Below, piece after piece: positions 12,465 to 25,681 of a stretch of DNA of 25,681 bases (its first letter is position 1; the number at the start of each line of letters is the position of its first letter). Origin of the DNA: a virus. Location: IMG/VR virus record IMGVR_UViG_3300029448_000387, positions 1-25,681 of that record; one strand, written 5' to 3'. The notes beneath the pieces were generated by a model that saw only the letters and a list, made by a program, of their open reading frames with translations, made no database searches and was not told where the DNA came from. The position numbers were made by a program, and so were the translations under genes.

Positions 12465-14438
12465 TCAATATCCTCCGGACGAGGATGAACTACTCGAAGA
12501 ACTGCTTGATGAACTACTCGAAGAACTACTCGAAGAACTGCTTGATGAACTACTCGAAGAACTGCTCGTAGTAGAAGACGTACTAGATGTCAACTCGACG
12601 CTTGATTGGGATATTGTAGTGCTATATGGATCATATTCTTCTACTGTAACCACGATTGCGGTTGGATCGCCTGAATCAATTACTAATATAGAACTTCTCT
12701 CAGAAAGAATGTCTTTGTTTGCAGGTTCAACTTCTATTTTTAAAATACCATCATCGATTGAAGTTGGATTTAATTTTTCAATTGAAATTGTTCCTGTTTC
12801 GTAGTCTACGTTACCGATGTTGTTGGAAATATATGTTCTCACTCCATTGACGAGTTCATATAATCTTATTTTTCCATTTCCATCGTCATCGATGTGTGCA
12901 TCACATACCGATCCGTCTAATTTGGTATATGAGAATTGTGAAGAATTGACTACTGACTGGTATCCTGCAATTGGATGATATAAAGGATTTTCGAACTTAA
13001 CGGTATAAGACGCTTCTCTTCCGATGGATGGTGTTAAACGTTTTTCTAAAACTAAAGAAGTTTCGTTGCTAATAATAGATTGATCGGTATCATCAATCTC
13101 TCTTACAAACTTAGAATATCTTAAGTTTCTAGAAAACTTTTCTAACGAAATTGTTTTATAAGCAAGAATTTTTGCAACCACTAATGAATTTAAATCATTA
13201 CTGCTTTTTGTTGTTTGATCCGAATTAAAGAAAACCTTAGAAGTTACTTTCATATAAATGTAGTTTGGATCTACAACATCGGGTATTATGCTAACTACGT
13301 TTTGATTCTTAATTAAGTTTTGAAGACTAATTTTTTCTTCGTTATTAAGCACAGTAGAGTTTGTTGGTTTCACAGCAACAAATACTTTTCCAAACTCTGG
13401 AGGGTTGTTGTCTTCCCCACCCCACACAAATACATCACTCGCATTAGAGTAGTTCGTTTCAATATAACTCTTGTAGTCGTTTGTAGTAACATTTCTATTC
13501 TGCGATTGGAATGCTTTTGGTGCGTTGAACTTAATAGAGTCTAAAGTTTCTTTACCTTTCCCTCCGTTAGATGATGTGACTACAGAAATATCGGCAACGT
13601 TTGATAGACTAGAACTAAAAGATCTAGAATTTTCTGCGTCTTGACTTCCTATTTCGTTTGCCTCTGTACCGTTGGTTACGATATAGTCAACGACAATTAA
13701 ATTTCCATCTGCAACTGCCGCGCCCAATATTCCATCACCAAAATATATTTCATACTGTCCTTCTTCTGTTTCTTGTATGAAGTATACTTTACTCGTTGAT
13801 GTGAGTGTAGTTATGTCCGAAACAGCAGTCCATGTATCAGCATACCCTGAAGTATTTGTTATGGATGTTTGAATATTAACTGTTAGTCTAGAGGTATCTA
13901 CATTTTTATCTGGAATGATAAATCTTTGTGTTGAAAGATTGCTGTCTACAACAAAAGAAGCATTTCTCCACGTTCCTTCAACTACACTAACGTTCCTGGC
14001 AATCTTTTGCGTACTGTTTAATACTTCAAACTCTTCTGCGTCTGGATTGGAAAATGTGTAAGAGACACCATCCTTTGCACCAATAAACTTTGTTCTTTTA
14101 GTAAGATAGGTGGTGCTTGAATCTGCGTTGTTGATTGTAACATCAATTAATGCCGACGATGTAGTAGATGAATTTGGAGTATATCCTAATGACTTTGCAT
14201 GGGAAACGACTGAAGTTCTCTTTACTGCACTGTCTAGGAACATTTCATTTGCTACCATGTTATTGTAGAAACCTTGGTAGTGAGTTACATACGCCAAAAG
14301 GTCCATAAGAATAGAAGTACCAGAGCCTTCGAAGTTGAAGTCCTTGAATTCATCAAGTCCGCTTAGGTATGACTTGAGATTATTTTTGATACCAAAGAAA
14401 TCTAAATCATTGATTTCAATTTTTCTTGAGTTTGTCAT
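12465..14438 (-). CDS. gp6: Baseplate wedge protein gp6 with a 30-serine tail
   Basis: A 657-aa protein, close to T4 gp6 (660 aa). The N-terminal signature is clear: residues 34-88 include FNFEGSGTSILMDLLAYVTH, YQGFYNNMVANEMFLDSAVK and SHAKSLGYTP. This family resembles gpJ of P2; gp6 dimers form the inner ring that holds the six wedges together and controls sheath contraction. The start overlaps the gp25 stop as ATGA, with GGAGAG 7 nt upstream, so translation is coupled. Oddity: residues 625-654 are 30 consecutive serines, followed by GGY. The run is preceded by a Thr/Ser-rich stretch (SVELTSSTSSTT). T4 gp6 has no such tail. The family assignment is very firm; the tail's role is unknown. Confidence 0.93.
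   Translation of the reverse strand: MTNSRKIEINDLDFFGIKNNLKSYLSGLDEFKDFNFEGSGTSILMDLLAYVTHYQGFYNNMVANEMFLDSAVKRTSVVSHAKSLGYTPNSSTTSSALIDVTINNADSSTTYLTKRTKFIGAKDGVSYTFSNPDAEEFEVLNSTQKIARNVSVVEGTWRNASFVVDSNLSTQRFIIPDKNVDTSRLTVNIQTSITNTSGYADTWTAVSDITTLTSTSKVYFIQETEEGQYEIYFGDGILGAAVADGNLIVVDYIVTNGTEANEIGSQDAENSRSFSSSLSNVADISVVTSSNGGKGKETLDSIKFNAPKAFQSQNRNVTTNDYKSYIETNYSNASDVFVWGGEDNNPPEFGKVFVAVKPTNSTVLNNEEKISLQNLIKNQNVVSIIPDVVDPNYIYMKVTSKVFFNSDQTTKSSNDLNSLVVAKILAYKTISLEKFSRNLRYSKFVREIDDTDQSIISNETSLVLEKRLTPSIGREASYTVKFENPLYHPIAGYQSVVNSSQFSYTKLDGSVCDAHIDDDGNGKIRLYELVNGVRTYISNNIGNVDYETGTISIEKLNPTSIDDGILKIEVEPANKDILSERSSILVIDSGDPTAIVVTVEEYDPYSTTISQSSVELTSSTSSTTSSSSSSSSSSSSSSSSSSSSSSSSSSSSSSGGY
12477..12566 (-). 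repeat. Tandem repeat encoding poly-serine in gp6
   Basis: Ninety bases built from 24-nt units (read on the plus strand as GATGAACTACTCGAAGAACT plus GCTT or GCTC) and an extra 12-nt sub-unit (ACTCGAAGAACT) in the middle copy. All 30 codons in the gp6 frame are serine, drawn from both serine codon families (AGT/AGC and TCA/TCT/TCG/TCC). The unit sizes are multiples of three, so copy-number change keeps the frame open. Confidence 0.9.
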
Positions 14439-14853: not shown

Positions 14854-15486
14854 TCATCGGTGTTTGTTTAATTGGTGCCCTAGTTGAACTTCTATAATTT
14901 TTCGTGATCTTTCCATCCACTCAATCGACATTTCCTCGTCAATACCATCTGCTTTAGACATACTACACCATTGCGCCATAACATATCCTATTGCTTGATT
15001 GTTTTTTCTTATTGGTAAGAACGAAAATGCTACGGTGTTGCTGTTTTCCATGAACTGCTTACACCAAGAATCTTCTAGATCAGATACCATGTATATGTGG
15101 GCATCATCTTCAAGAACTAATGTGAGTCCATCGATACACATCGACAGCATTAGATCTTGTTTGACCTCCCGTTCGCTGGAAACGCCTTTCCTCAGTGACT
15201 CGTGGGTGAGTGACTGTTTCTTCATCGAAACGCCATTTAAGAACTCGCCGCCGTTATGGAACTGTACTATTTGCGCTCTTGCACAATCAGTTTTTACTCG
15301 TAACTCGGTGAGTGTTTCGTGGAGTTGTGTGTGTACATCCCAATTACACGACTCTGGCATCTTTAAATTTATAGGAGATAATAATTTAATTTTTCTTTTC
15401 TTCATCAAGAAAACAACTGCTGATATTGCTCCAGCACCAATACCTGCGACAACTCCCCCTAATTCAAACCAAAATGTAGTGTCCAT
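14854..15486 (-). CDS. Membrane-anchored GAF-like protein in the baseplate operon
   Basis: A 210-aa protein. Residues 5-28 are a single hydrophobic segment with Gly-rich packing faces (FELGGVVAGIGAGAISAVVF), followed by the basic stop KKRKIK, so one N-terminal membrane anchor with the rest in the cytoplasm is likely. Residues about 52-205 look like a GAF-type sensor fold: helix HETLTELRVKTDCARAQIV, strand/turn QFHNGGEFLNGVSMKKQSLT, a later FLPIRKNNQAIGYVMAQW core, and a final amphipathic helix. An AAGGA lies about 10 nt before the ATG. It lies between the unknown 246-aa gene and gp25. GAF-like folding is judged from pattern only; ligand and role are unknown. A virion role, a lysis-timing role or a host-sensing role are all possible. 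Confidence 0.7.
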   Translation of the reverse strand: MDTTFWFELGGVVAGIGAGAISAVVFLMKKRKIKLLSPINLKMPESCNWDVHTQLHETLTELRVKTDCARAQIVQFHNGGEFLNGVSMKKQSLTHESLRKGVSSEREVKQDLMLSMCIDGLTLVLEDDAHIYMVSDLEDSWCKQFMENSNTVAFSFLPIRKNNQAIGYVMAQWCSMSKADGIDEEMSIEWMERSRKIIEVQLGHQLNKHR

Positions 15487-21133: not shown

Positions 21134-21141
21134 TATAAATG
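21134..21141 (+). promoter_or_regulatory. Late-promoter-like box (TATAAATG) driving gp4
   Basis: TATAAATG matches the T4 late promoter consensus TATAAATA in 7 of 8 bases. It lies in the short divergent gap, 15 nt before the ATG at 21157. If it is the promoter, the ATG formed by its own last bases (21139) would be upstream of the RNA start, which supports 21157 as the start of gp4. Confidence 0.5.
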
Positions 21142-21149
21142 AACTACAT

Positions 21150-21155
21150 ATTATA
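21150..21155 (-). promoter_or_regulatory. TATAAT box for the minus-strand baseplate operon
   Basis: The minus strand reads TATAAT here, a perfect -10 hexamer (also near the late box TATAAATA), 29 nt before the gp48 ATG at 21120 and followed by the SD GAGAGGAAC. I see no TTGACA-like -35. The position is right for a divergent promoter, but AT-rich sequence makes chance matches likely. Confidence 0.35.
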
Positions 21156-21156
21156 T

Positions 21157-21591
21157 ATGGCATACAAAGGACGATATAAACCAAAACACCCAGAAAAATA
21201 TATTGGGAACCCAACCAATATAATTTATCGTAGTCTTCTCGAAAGGCGATTCATGGTGTATTGCGACTCTTCTAAAAATATATTAGAATGGGGTTCGGAA
21301 GAAGTAATTGTCCCTTATAAATCTCCAGTTGATAATAGAATGCATCGTTACTATGTAGACTTTATTGTTAAGTTGCGAAATAAAGAAGGATTAACCGAGA
21401 CTCTTTTGATAGAAGTTAAACCAAAAAAACAATGTTCTGAACCGAAGAAACCAAAAAAGAAAACACGAACATACCTGAACGAAGTTAAAACATGGGGTGT
21501 AAATACGGCGAAATGGAAAGCAGCGACAGAGTACGCCGAGAACAAGGGTTGGAAATTTAAAATTATGACAGACGAAACCCTGGCTCCATAA
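21157..21591 (+). CDS. gp4: Head completion protein gp4
   Basis: I use the ATG at 21157 (MAYKGRYKPKHPEKYIGNPT, 144 aa; T4 gp4 is 150 aa). The upstream ATG at 21139 lies in a probable promoter box. Family blocks are YKGRYKPKHPEKYIGNPTNI, IIYRSLLERRFMVYCD, YYVDFIVKLRNKEG with LLIEVKPKKQ, and TWGVNTAKWKAATEYAENKG. The E(R)-D-ExK pattern (Glu in LLERRF; Asp in YVDF; Glu-Val-Lys in IEVKPK) is like the endonuclease fold of TnsA-type proteins. In T4, gp4 works with gp50 and gp65 in head completion before tails attach. The first gene of the plus block, diverging from gp48. There is no clear SD. Confidence 0.9.
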   Translation: MAYKGRYKPKHPEKYIGNPTNIIYRSLLERRFMVYCDSSKNILEWGSEEVIVPYKSPVDNRMHRYYVDFIVKLRNKEGLTETLLIEVKPKKQCSEPKKPKKKTRTYLNEVKTWGVNTAKWKAATEYAENKGWKFKIMTDETLAP

Positions 21592-21609: not shown

Positions 21610-22290
21610 ATGGCTAAACAAAGCAGAATCCTAGAAAATCCAGATGCAGTCCTCGCAAGAAAAAACATCTTCGATGCGTTGGATGAACTGTTTGATGATA
21701 CTGGAATTCCAAGAGGATCCCAGCAAGCCATGTCTTGGTTTAGAAGTCTTGCAAGACAGTTGTTTGATGAGACTGATGCTACCCCAGAAGAAACCTTCCT
21801 AAGAGATCCGTCAAGAATTATTCAAAAGAGCGGATACAAGAGGAGGGGTAACTTTTTCATCTTTAACTACCTACCAAAAGGAGCATCTAAATTAAAATAC
21901 TTTGACACGATGCCTCTTGTGCTTTTGTTGGACTTCACAAAAGACGGATTCTATGGTCTGAATCTGCACTATCTACCAAACAACCTCCGAGAGAGATTCT
22001 ATCTTTTAATCAGACAAAGAATGGTAGGTTCTGATGAGGATGAATTTGCCAGAATAAATATCAACTATGATACATTAAAATCTCAGAGGCAATTTAGACT
22101 TTATCGACCTTGTATTCGAAGATATAAGACTAGATATATTGGTTCTAGAATTTTAAGAATCACACCGAAGGATTGGGATTTTGCAATCCACCTTCCGCTT
22201 GAGAGATTTAAGAAAGCAAACAGAAACGTTGTATACACAGATTCCAGACGTAAACTAGCAGAAGAAATAGAAGGAAGTGCGGAACAGTAA
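21610..22290 (+). CDS. Conserved T4-like virion or assembly protein of unassigned role
   Basis: A 226-aa, basic, Arg-rich protein. The distinctive central block is LKYFDTMPLVLLLDFTKDGF followed by YGLNLHYLPNNLRERFYLLI (residues about 97-135). A second block is FRLYRPCIRRYKTRYIGSRI and LRITPKDWDFAIHLPLERFK. I have a memory of this family in T4-like structural operons of marine phages but cannot place it confidently. T4 has gene 2 (DNA-end protector) beside gene 4, so a gp2-type role is a possible but weak inference. The ATG lacks a clear SD and is preceded by TACATATTATAT, as in gp4. The stop overlaps the gp54 start (TAATG). Confidence 0.78.
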   Translation: MAKQSRILENPDAVLARKNIFDALDELFDDTGIPRGSQQAMSWFRSLARQLFDETDATPEETFLRDPSRIIQKSGYKRRGNFFIFNYLPKGASKLKYFDTMPLVLLLDFTKDGFYGLNLHYLPNNLRERFYLLIRQRMVGSDEDEFARININYDTLKSQRQFRLYRPCIRRYKTRYIGSRILRITPKDWDFAIHLPLERFKKANRNVVYTDSRRKLAEEIEGSAEQ

Positions 22291-23126
22291 TGCCAATATT
22301 ACCACCAGATTTTCAGAACAACTTATTAGAGATTGATACCAGTATCAATCTACCACTTGTTGGTAGTATTAGTCCTTTCGGAGACACTGGTTCTAGAGTA
22401 CCCAATGGTGTTGACACTCTAGTGGCAATGATTACCAACAAAGATCTTGCATATCCATTCCGATACGAGATTTCTTTTAACACGGCAGATGCACTTTCTA
22501 ATCTCAGACTCGCAGTGTCATGTGAAAATGTTTCTCTTCCCGGTAAAACAATCTCGACACAAGAGATCAAAACACACGGACCTGTTGATGACATGCCATA
22601 TGAGGTTTCGTTCGCTGGTGACGTTGATGCAACATTCAAGGTTGCAGGAGATTATTTTGAGAGGAACTTCTTCGACTCATGGCAAAATTTAATAGTCAAT
22701 CCCGGAACCAACAACTTGGGATACAAGGATTCATACTCATGCGAGATGGAAATAACCCAACTTGATTTGCAAGATCAACCAATCTACCACTTGGTTCTTG
22801 AGGACTGTTTTCCAAAGACAGTTAATCCTATTGAGTTGGGTGATGATCGAGAGGGAATTCAAAGACAGACTGTTTCGTTTTCGTATAGAAAGTGGAGATT
22901 CAGAAAACCAGAAGAAGTCGGATTCTTGCAGAGTGTAATCAACCGACTAGATCTTCGAGGAAGACTCAACAGAAAACTAGACGATATGTTTGGTGGAACC
23001 ATTCCCATGGAACCAACTGCTATCGGTGGAACCGTCTTGAATCTTCCTTTTGGTTTGAACCCCGGACAACTAACAGATCAAGCAGGACTTGCCACCTCTG
23101 ATTTCTTTAATGATTTACTTGGATAA
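22290..23126 (+). CDS. gp54: Baseplate tail tube initiator gp54
   Basis: A 278-aa protein (T4 gp54 is 320). It carries a tube-like fold: AYPFRYEISFNTADALSNLR, SCENVSLPGKTISTQEIKTH, then YEVSFAGDVDATFKVAGDYF, FFDSWQNLIVNPGTNNLGYK and a strand pair CEMEITQLD...YHLVLEDCFPKTVNPIELG. This family caps the baseplate with gp48 and nucleates the tail tube. The C-terminal 70 residues (QSVINRLDLRGRLNRKLDD and beyond) are polar and Gly/Pro-rich. Start codon shares a base with the preceding stop. The call as gp54 rather than tube gp19 is based on its position with gp48, the 26-type chaperone and the tape-measure gene. Confidence 0.82.
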   Translation: MPILPPDFQNNLLEIDTSINLPLVGSISPFGDTGSRVPNGVDTLVAMITNKDLAYPFRYEISFNTADALSNLRLAVSCENVSLPGKTISTQEIKTHGPVDDMPYEVSFAGDVDATFKVAGDYFERNFFDSWQNLIVNPGTNNLGYKDSYSCEMEITQLDLQDQPIYHLVLEDCFPKTVNPIELGDDREGIQRQTVSFSYRKWRFRKPEEVGFLQSVINRLDLRGRLNRKLDDMFGGTIPMEPTAIGGTVLNLPFGLNPGQLTDQAGLATSDFFNDLLG

Positions 23127-23134
23127 TATAAAAT

Positions 23135-23144: not shown

Positions 23145-23837
23145 ATGAAACTACCAAGCGTTGCGCTACCAAAATATCAAATTCATGTACCATCAACAGG
23201 CGAAAAAGTATTCTATCGCCCATTTGTTGTGAAAGAGGAAAAGGTATTACTCATTGCACTCGAAAGTGGAGAATACCCAATGATTGCAAAAGCAATCAAG
23301 GACATCGTAAATTCTTGTACATACGAACAACTCGACGTTGAAACTATGCCTATTTTTGACATATGTTACTTGTTCATTAACATTAGAGCCAAATCAGTGG
23401 GTGAAACGGTAGAACCAAATCTAATTTGCAAGTCGTGTAAATTTAAAAACCCAACAGAAATTAATTTGTCAGAGATTCAGGTAATGGGGGATCTCAGCAA
23501 AGATAAAAAATTAAAACTTGGTGAAAACGTTGGTATGGTTTTAAAATATCCTGCTCTAAACACTGAAGAAGATGTTGATGGTGTAGATCTTTCTTTACAC
23601 TCTATTGCAGATTGTATTGAAATGATATTTGAAGGTGATAATGTGTTTAAAGCAGAGGACATTAAGAAAGAGGAATTGGTGGGTTTTATTGAAAACCTAA
23701 CACATCAACAGTTTGAAAGCATTCTTGAATTCTTTGCAGAAATGCCTAGACTTTGCCATAGCGTAAATTATACATGTTCACAGTGTGGTGAAAAGAACGA
23801 AGTAACATTGGAGGGACTTGGTGATTTTTTTCTCTGA
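23145..23837 (+). CDS. gp26: Tape-measure chaperone, gp26-like (0-frame product)
   Basis: A 230-aa protein of the T4 baseplate gp26 type (T4 gp26 is 208 aa), the counterpart of the tail assembly chaperone that coats the tape-measure protein. Visible blocks are YRPFVVKEEKVLLIALESGE (24-43), MPIFDICYLFINIRAKSVGE (68-87), and FIENLTHQQFESILEFFAEM followed by PRLCHSVNYTC (181-211). It carries two C-x2-C pairs, Cys95/Cys98 and Cys211/Cys214, that could form one zinc site. The reading frame stops at 23835-23837, just after a seven-T run. Start fixed by GGAG spaced 6 nt before this ATG. Confidence 0.85.
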   Translation: MKLPSVALPKYQIHVPSTGEKVFYRPFVVKEEKVLLIALESGEYPMIAKAIKDIVNSCTYEQLDVETMPIFDICYLFINIRAKSVGETVEPNLICKSCKFKNPTEINLSEIQVMGDLSKDKKLKLGENVGMVLKYPALNTEEDVDGVDLSLHSIADCIEMIFEGDNVFKAEDIKKEELVGFIENLTHQQFESILEFFAEMPRLCHSVNYTCSQCGEKNEVTLEGLGDFFL

Positions 23838-24016
23838 CTCTCTCACATGAATCATTAGTCTTATTTTACAAACTCAATTTCCAGATGATGCAGCACCACA
23901 AGTATTCACTAGAAGAGTTAGAAAATATGATGCCATGGGAGAGAGAAGTTTATACAAGTCTTTTAGTACAACATATAGACGATCAAAATAAAAAGATGGA
24001 ACAAGCAAAAGGGTAA
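23145..24016 (+). CDS. Tape-measure chaperone frameshift product (gp26 + downstream frame)
   Basis: A -1 shift at the seven-T run lets translation continue from 23831 without a stop to the TAA at 24014-24016, giving about 290 aa. The added 61 residues begin SLTLSHESLVLFYKLNFQMM, then YSLEELENMMPWEREVYTSL, then a polar helix. The downstream frame is open from the slip site onward, keeps phage-like composition, and has no SD for independent initiation at its ATG pair (23885). This matches the G/GT tail-chaperone arrangement of lambda-like phages. In them the long form carries a C-terminal extension and is needed for correct tape-measure loading. The shift frequency cannot be read from sequence. 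Confidence 0.75.
23825..23831 (+). promoter_or_regulatory. Slippery heptamer T-TTT-TTT for -1 frameshift
   Basis: Seven T's in 0-frame phase GAT-TTT-TTT-CTC-TGA fit the X-XXY-YYZ rule exactly: tRNAs in both P and A sites can re-pair after a one-base backward slip. The 0-frame stop lies one codon later. No strong stem-loop is obvious downstream by eye; only short weak complementarity (GACT with AGTC at 23836-23860) is visible. Confidence 0.75.
24009..24013 (+). promoter_or_regulatory. SD for the GTG start of the tape-measure gene
   Basis: AAGGG overlaps the end of the frameshift reading frame and lies 8 nt before GTG at 24022. The next in-frame ATG is about 400 nt further on, after well-conserved coding sequence, so GTG is the start. 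Confidence 0.7.
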
Positions 24017-24021
24017 ATTAA

Positions 24022-25681
24022 GTGTCAGATAGAATCGAACAATTAGAAAAGAAAATTGCGGATGCAAGATTAAAGATTTCTTCAAATCTTTCCCCCGGTG
24101 GTGATCCTAGCCAACGTGGTGCATCTCTCTTCAATACTATACTCGGTTCGAAGGTTGGTGGTTTTTTATCTAATGTTCCTGCCAGTGTAACAGAAGCCAG
24201 AAGAAGACAAGCAGAAGGTGAACTGAAGAGAGCAGAGTCTCAATTAGAGAGAGAAAAGAAGAAGAGTAGATTCGAGTCTCATACACCATCCGAAGCAGCA
24301 GAAGAGTCTAGAGAAGGTGACGTAAGAGAAACCGAGATAGTCGCAAAAGAAGATGAAGTCGTAGATCATCTTAGAGCGATTAGATCAAACACTGATGCTT
24401 TGGTTGGTAATCCATCTATTGTTGCGATTGGTGGTATGGGGAGAGGAAGAGCCGGTGCTGCTGGTGCTGATGGGATAATGGGTTCGGGACTCGATGCAAT
24501 GGATCTTGGATTGTTGGGTACAATGATTCTACCAGGTCCACTGAAAGCACTTGCAAAATCTAGAGTTGGACAATTTGTAACAGGATTCTTTACAACTGCA
24601 AAGGTTGCCCAAACCGGACAAATGGGATTTGCAGGAATTCAAGCAGCACGAATGGCACAGACTGCAAAACAAGGAAGAATGGCAAGTGCAGTTACAGGTT
24701 TATCAAAGGCAGCAAGAACCATCAGCATGGGTAGGTTCTTTGGTGGACTGGTAAGTTTCGGTATCACCGAAGCAATTTATCAAATAGGTAATGCGATGAT
24801 CGAAGAAGCCAATGACGAGATCAGAGCAAACGAAGTTCTGTTAAATGTCAGTGGAATGATGGACAAAGATAAGCAGGGCAGAACCAGATCCACTAACGTA
24901 GGAATGCAAACAGACGCATTTGGTAATACCATACCCGGAACAGGAATGGTACTGCGTGATCCTGCGAAGGGTGATGCCCCCGGAGAACTACCCAAGCACA
25001 CGATTGCTAGAGGTTTGTTGCGAGAAAACGAACATTTAGTTTACGAGAGACTGAGAGCAGCCCATCAAGCATTTGAGAGAAATGAAGATGGTATTGGTGT
25101 AGAACAAATGGAAGCAGCACAGACCTTATTAAGAGATAGAGGTCGTATCGCTTCTATGCTTTCGCCTAGTAGTCTTGAAGAAGCACTGGGAATACTTCGA
25201 TTTGAAGGAACAAATATATTTGGTGCTGCTACAATGGAACTTAATGGTGTGGGTGATGAAATTAATTCTCTACTAGAACCACATGATTACTCCAAGTTCA
25301 GACAAACACTAAGTCTGTTAGAACAGTTCGATCCGCAAAGCAATAAAGGAATAAAGAATTTACAACAGGCTCAAGTCGGACGAACCACTACCATGTTTAC
25401 CGGACAAGGTGCAATAGACAAAGGTCTAAATGCTATGGGATTCGAGGGGCTACGAAGAACAGAAACAGGAACAGAGACTATAATCAATGACAGGTTAGAG
25501 TCTGGTTTGAGACAAAGGCGAGAGAGAATGAGTGGTTCTGCTAGTTCTGTTTCTGTTGCTCCTAGTTCTGTTAATGGTATGGTATCTTTAGACAGAAATG
25601 CGTCAGGAACTTTTGATAGACTAATGCTTTCATCTGGAACAGAATTGAGAGACGTAGGTTTGTATAATGTAAATGCCCCTA
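24022..25681 (+). CDS. Probable tape-measure / hub protein (C-terminus outside window)
   Basis: Open from GTG at 24022 to the right edge (553 codons, no stop). The protein begins MSDRIEQLEKKIADARLKIS. Residues about 1-120 are charged and coiled-coil-like (RRRQAEGELKRAESQLEREK). Residues about 138-265 are Gly/Ala-rich with hydrophobic helices (DLGLLGTMILPGPLKALAK, FFTTAKVAQTGQMGFAGIQA, GRFFGGLVSFGITEAIYQIG). The remainder is helical and polar, ending in a Ser-rich part. A long helical protein with a hydrophobic middle, directly after the chaperone, fits a tape-measure protein; in T4 the equivalent is gp29 (590 aa). I see no direct sequence match, so the call rests on order and composition. Confidence 0.72.
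   Translation, partial: MSDRIEQLEKKIADARLKISSNLSPGGDPSQRGASLFNTILGSKVGGFLSNVPASVTEARRRQAEGELKRAESQLEREKKKSRFESHTPSEAAEESREGDVRETEIVAKEDEVVDHLRAIRSNTDALVGNPSIVAIGGMGRGRAGAAGADGIMGSGLDAMDLGLLGTMILPGPLKALAKSRVGQFVTGFFTTAKVAQTGQMGFAGIQAARMAQTAKQGRMASAVTGLSKAARTISMGRFFGGLVSFGITEAIYQIGNAMIEEANDEIRANEVLLNVSGMMDKDKQGRTRSTNVGMQTDAFGNTIPGTGMVLRDPAKGDAPGELPKHTIARGLLRENEHLVYERLRAAHQAFERNEDGIGVEQMEAAQTLLRDRGRIASMLSPSSLEEALGILRFEGTNIFGAATMELNGVGDEINSLLEPHDYSKFRQTLSLLEQFDPQSNKGIKNLQQAQVGRTTTMFTGQGAIDKGLNAMGFEGLRRTETGTETIINDRLESGLRQRRERMSGSASSVSVAPSSVNGMVSLDRNASGTFDRLMLSSGTELRDVGLYNVNAP

Follow-up and report, generated by a model that had tools for sequence, protein, structure and literature searches.

Organization of the gp26 locus

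The window analysed in this study, the complete 25,681-nt stretch of the IMG/VR virus record IMGVR_UViG_3300029448_000387, contains a gp26-type gene whose 3' end overlaps an open -1 frame (Table 1). The original prediction had placed the start of this gene at 23145, which proved correct because homologues begin at this position and a GGAG lies just upstream, while an in-frame ATG at 23133 was rejected as a four-codon overcall. The 3' end reads GGT GAT TTT TTT CTC TGA, exactly as had been described, and both the heptamer T TTT TTT and the -1 open frame of 61 codons are present as claimed. A TGA immediately adjoining the heptamer closes this frame upstream, and from 23825 the frame runs through two Phe codons (FF) and the 61 codons to the TAA at 24014-24016, giving a predicted frameshift product of 290 aa compared with 230 residues for the short protein. 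Upstream of gp26 lies the tube-like gene. The downstream gene, earlier named as the tape measure gene, does occupy the position directly after the -1 frame, but it has no match to any Pfam or PHROG family and is therefore a probable tape measure gene by position only.

Table 1 Features of the gp26 locus in the window (positions count from the first base of the window).
Feature	Position	Strand	Evidence or remark
Upstream neighbour, tail tube-like protein	22290..23126	+	phrog_3629 E=2.5e-32, phrog_45 E=1.3e-31
gp26-type gene, predicted short tail assembly chaperone (TAC-N, 230 aa)	23145..23837	+	PF12322 T4_baseplate E=7e-60; phrog_150 E=5e-66
GGAGGG, Shine-Dalgarno-like, proposed frameshift stimulator	23810..23815	+	Synonymous-codon test; spacing
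Slippery heptamer T TTT TTT	23825..23831	+	NNT TTT TTY in 90/90 relatives
gp26 stop TGA, one codon past the slip site	23835..23837	+	
-1 frame extension, gp51-type domain, 61 codons and TAA	23831..24016	+	phrog_634 E=2.4e-26; purifying selection
Downstream gene, probable tape measure protein	24022..25681	+	GTG start, runs off the window; position only

Elsewhere in the window, a head closure (gp4-type) protein (21139-21591) gives a Pfam hit (E=8e-22) to the N-terminal domain of TnsA-like endonucleases. On the minus strand, a baseplate-region gene (12465-14438) ends in a long serine run (12465-12640), which looks like a simple-repeat tail of possibly variable length and whose opposite strand encodes a repeated NYSKN ORF, and a 210-aa ORF with a membrane-like N-terminal segment (14854-15486) is located among the baseplate genes.

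The slippery heptamer is conserved in the gp26 relatives examined

With about 13 occurrences of TTTTTTY on the two strands of the window, a heptamer by itself is unsurprising; the site at the end of gp26 goes beyond chance because of its conservation, not because of its mere occurrence. The search of homologous gp26 genes that had been proposed for the heptamer and the open -1 frame returned a uniform result, in that 90 of 90 relatives, down to approximately 33% identity, end gp26 with NNT TTT TTY and carry a gp51 domain in the -1 frame after the heptamer, with conservation extending to the residues ahead of any ATG. The alignment search for relatives yielded 80 loci, including a duplicate of a contig already counted. 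The same junction is found in seven close IMG/VR relatives (75-100% identical), and NNT TTT TTY is also present in Vibrio phage nt-1, two KVP40-type contigs, S-CAM4, Aeromonas phage phiAS5 and Methylophilales phage Melnitz-2. The heptamer is likewise retained in L038, L068, L084, L086, L093 and L097, in which gp26 terminates several codons later. Pseudoalteromonas phage XG4 (L140 446-1213) has the slip site T TTT TTA instead of T TTT TTY; T TTT TTA is the heptamer of HIV-1.

TTT makes up 73% of the Phe codons in these gp26-family genes. Calculated from the codon usage of each gene, a T is expected to precede TTT at the slip site with a probability of about 0.44-0.45, and the product of these expectations amounts to 1.3e-8 for 21 genes less than 50% identical and 1e-14 for 37 genes less than 60% identical, values that are somewhat overstated as they assume independent sequences. 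Because the heptamer is conserved in every one of the approximately 90 relatives checked, the frameshift signal is very probably real.

The homopolymer run invites two other explanations. A one-T sequencing or assembly error within a continuous gene would be most easily made at such a run, but its probability is negligible because independent contigs share the junction: it is identical in seven other contigs and recurs in some 80 more distant loci and in isolate genomes. Transcriptional slippage, by which mRNAs one base longer or shorter would allow normal translation of the long form, would draw on the seven T's adjoining the open frame and on the known slippage at long A or T runs. In 67 of 86 relatives, however, the run ends in C after only six T's (TTTTTTC), fewer than the runs of nine cited for bacterial slippage, and the fixed phase of NNT TTT TTY fits tandem tRNA slippage instead, which makes a transcriptional origin very unlikely.

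The -1 frame encodes a gp51-type extension

The chaperone-extension-like content that had been noticed in the -1 frame corresponds to a gp51 domain, the matching family, phrog_634 (Table 1), being annotated as baseplate hub assembly catalyst. Of the 29 base changes between the window and the locus L010, whose gp26 is 75% identical, 23 are synonymous when read in the -1 frame, compared with 2 and 1 in the other frames. Over the initial 47 bases, which precede any ATG, all ten changes are silent for the -1 frame and none for either of the others. The -1 frame consequently evolves as protein from the slip onward, including the residues that precede any ATG.

This bears on the possibility that the small frame is an independent gp51 gene, with its own start or translated by termination-reinitiation at the gp26 stop. 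A separate gp51 is annotated in S-PM2, Bellamy, HTVC008M, nt-1 and Cr30, 29 of 86 relatives have their first -1-frame ATG at codon 5, which would permit separate translation there, and the window itself has a CTG at 23834 with GGTGAT 5' of it. Across the 86 relatives, however, no start codon position is shared, and the first -1-frame ATGs of the window (23885 and 23888) lack a ribosome site and fall within the conserved domain, so that initiation there would drop a conserved stretch. As an independent gene would also leave unexplained both the invariance of T TTT TTY and its loss in the T4 clade (see below), we consider this alternative improbable and retain the programmed -1 frameshift.

With the extension in the -1 frame, gp51 is easily lost from annotation, which is the reason why S-CAM4 (L138 500-1391) has no gp51 annotated at all and why in phiAS5 (L139 434-1383) a short hypothetical ORF covers the -1 frame only partly. 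The same cause probably applies to Aeh1, where gp51 has been called missing.

A Shine-Dalgarno-like element precedes the heptamer

A GGAGG core (23810-23814) lies 10 nt 5' of the heptamer within the codons TTG GAG GGA for LEG, and 10 nt is the commonest spacing between SD-like element and heptamer among the relatives. In 86 relatives, the predicted pairing with the 16S tail averages -7.3 kcal/mol compared with -5.8 kcal/mol in synonymous recodings drawn from each gene itself (z=-9.4), whereas 20 control segments of the same genes gave z between -2.2 and +2.5, somewhat damped as they were taken from every third locus. Restricted to 21 sequences below 50% identity, the test still yields z=-5.8. 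Codon choice points in the same direction: at LEG the Glu codon is GAG in 52 of 65 cases, against 542 of 2045 (27%) elsewhere and 8 of 46 before Gly elsewhere. The SD-like GGAGG is thus favoured at synonymous sites. It was the duplex energy and the Glu codon test that resolved the question; the longest-substring match to the anti-SD, tried as a measure, gave an excess of only about 1.7 SD and was abandoned as too coarse because GAA GGA also yields AAGGA. For the window itself the predicted pairing reaches -11.0 kcal/mol, part of which may stem from the GGTGAT adjoining the heptamer and not from GGAGG.

The 10-nt spacer falls within the working distance of 9-14 nt given for SD-like stimulators of -1 shifts by Atkins et al. 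2016 (PMC5009743), whose relevant passages name dnaX and many IS elements but not tail chaperone genes. We found no earlier report of an SD-like element in tail chaperone genes in the open-access literature and, as far as could be checked there, the GGAGG 10 nt before the heptamer is apparently new.

Downstream hairpins differ between lineages

No downstream hairpin was found in the window. Across the family, a clear excess of predicted folding over shuffled sequences is restricted to segments whose start falls between approximately 7 nt before and 9 nt after the last base of TTT TTY, with a mean z of -1.5 at +3 to +6 nt and values mostly between -0.4 and +0.3 elsewhere. Long hairpins occur in several lineages, such as S-PM2 (L012 1520-1553), where one of about 14 bp begins about 9 nt past the heptamer and is much stronger than anything in the window. 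No hairpin common to the whole ungapped family emerged from RNAalifold because the hairpin register differs between the lineages. A trade-off between SD-like strength and hairpin was likewise absent (Spearman 0.10, p=0.36). A hairpin present in many relatives and absent in the window is, as far as could be checked, an apparently new observation, and the gp26 family seems to follow the dnaX layout, with the hairpin as an optional part.

Relation to gp26 and gp51 of the T4 clade

Whereas the gp51 domain of the window is encoded in the -1 frame of gp26, the T4 clade has a separate gene for gp51, in frame and about 250 codons long (249-253 aa). One locus departs from this length (L136, 2501 onward), its gp51 frame stopping after 120 codons compared with about 250 in its relatives through a mutation or a sequencing error. 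The T4-clade gp26 retains the GLKEFF end in most of 32 readable loci, but the codons are mostly GAR TTC TTT or TTC TTC and no NNT TTT TTY is left, the nearest exception being GAG TTT TTT in L119. The Phe pair is thus kept for the protein and the slippery codons only where the -1 frame follows, and we regard this natural control as stronger evidence on the heptamer than the products derived from codon usage.

Profile comparison relates the gp26 of the window family to that of the T4 clade (E=1e-19); its match to the N-terminal part of gp51 is weaker (E=3e-5, probability 72%). T4-clade gp51 aligns with gp26 in hhalign (E=6e-10). An AlphaFold model of the window gp26 (pLDDT 90), built from an alignment that left out the annotated-record rows, matches viral models of both gp26 and gp51 type. 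Regarding solved structures, the chaperones 3FGX and 2OB9, which served as a test for the HK97 gp13-type fold, gave a Foldseek E of about 5 against the PDB, which is not significant, and a profile search of solved structures returned nothing relevant.

The N-terminal approximately 200 residues of T4 gp51 constitute a diverged copy of gp26 and only the C-terminal approximately 50 correspond to the -1 frame. By these profile and model matches, T4 gp51 is a gp26-like paralogue fused in frame to the extension and gp26 the copy lacking it. The idea that gp26 and gp51 of T4 arose by the splitting of a once-linked chaperone therefore gives way to duplication followed by in-frame fusion. The frameshift layout is more widespread than the T4 arrangement and occurs in Kyanoviridae, Mylasvirus and Chrysonvirus; it is presumably the ancestral state.

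Discussion

Taken together, the comparative evidence makes it very likely that gene 26 of this marine T4-type myovirus encodes its tail assembly chaperone by means of a programmed -1 frameshift, as originally proposed. This reading is supported by the conserved heptamer, the -1 frame and its protein, the lack of a conserved start for the small frame and the loss of the slippery site in the T4 clade. Because the heptamer and the gp51 domain in the -1 frame are conserved and the slippery site is lost in the T4-clade fusions, gp26 would represent the short and gp26-gp51 the long chaperone. Most ribosomes would stop at the TGA at 23835 and produce the short TAC-N, while pairing between GGAGGG and the 16S rRNA tail would hold a minority of them, which would slip back one base on T TTT TTT and continue into the long TAC-NC with its gp51-type domain. 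By analogy to lambda gpG/gpGT, many short and few long copies would coat the tape measure protein, and the extension of the long form may recruit tail tube subunits.

As the driver of tail chaperone frameshifting in the wider T4 superfamily we slightly favour a dnaX-like signal in which U UUU UUY is preceded at 10 nt by an SD-like element and, in many lineages, followed by a hairpin. Lineages would weight the stimulators differently, and the T4 clade would have replaced the signal by duplication and in-frame fusion. Cyanophage gp51 has been described as having about 20% of the length of its T4 counterpart (Sullivan et al. 2010, PMC3037559). The frameshift would explain why database gp51 entries of cyanophages have only about 50 residues, and it offers a reason why no gp51 was found in Aeh1; in the relatives examined, gp51 would be neither shrunken nor lost but the frameshift half of gene 26. 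The SD-like element moreover leads to a specific prediction that can be tested in phages of cyanobacteria and of other marine hosts.

A G/GT-like layout is not a novel idea in T4-like phages, since later papers credit Vladimirov, Gautam and Davidson 2022 (Virology 566:9) with identifying the tail assembly chaperones of these phages and the poly-T slip sites in their short-chaperone genes (PMC10885494, PMC12846349). The main claim is therefore known in kind, and the window contributes another example, from an uncultivated marine lineage, sharing the protein families and the poly-T slip site with the T4-like gp26/gp51 described there. The PRFect paper (PMC10885494), where it cites the same study, refers to T4-like phages with a short gene and a long fusion gene and no frameshifting. 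T4 has its short and long forms as separate genes where the window has one gene and a frameshift, which provides a natural comparison of frameshifting and gene duplication as ways to obtain one protein in two lengths, the slippery codons being lost once no longer needed.

The conserved tail-gene frameshift, with lambda gpG/gpGT, was reportedly described by Xu, Hendrix and Duda in 2004. The precedent in the lambda tail chaperone is also covered in passages of PMC5009743. In common with lambda, the window has its -1 slip near the 3' end of the gene and just upstream of the presumed tape measure gene, with a short main and a long minor product, both predicted here, but its U UUU UUU slip site and SD-like stimulator differ, and the likeness drawn here is one of layout. 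With phage Adele and the Vandenendeviridae and Andersonviridae (PMC12846349), it shares a T-run that ends the short chaperone gene and an open -1 frame lacking a separate gene, although the Adele motif is GTTTTT and the phage families are different. The locus resembles E. coli dnaX in having an SD-like element some 10 nt ahead of the heptamer and, in many relatives of the window, the 3' hairpin, whereas it differs in the gene concerned, in the U-run that takes the place of A AAA AAG, and in a window that dispenses with the hairpin.
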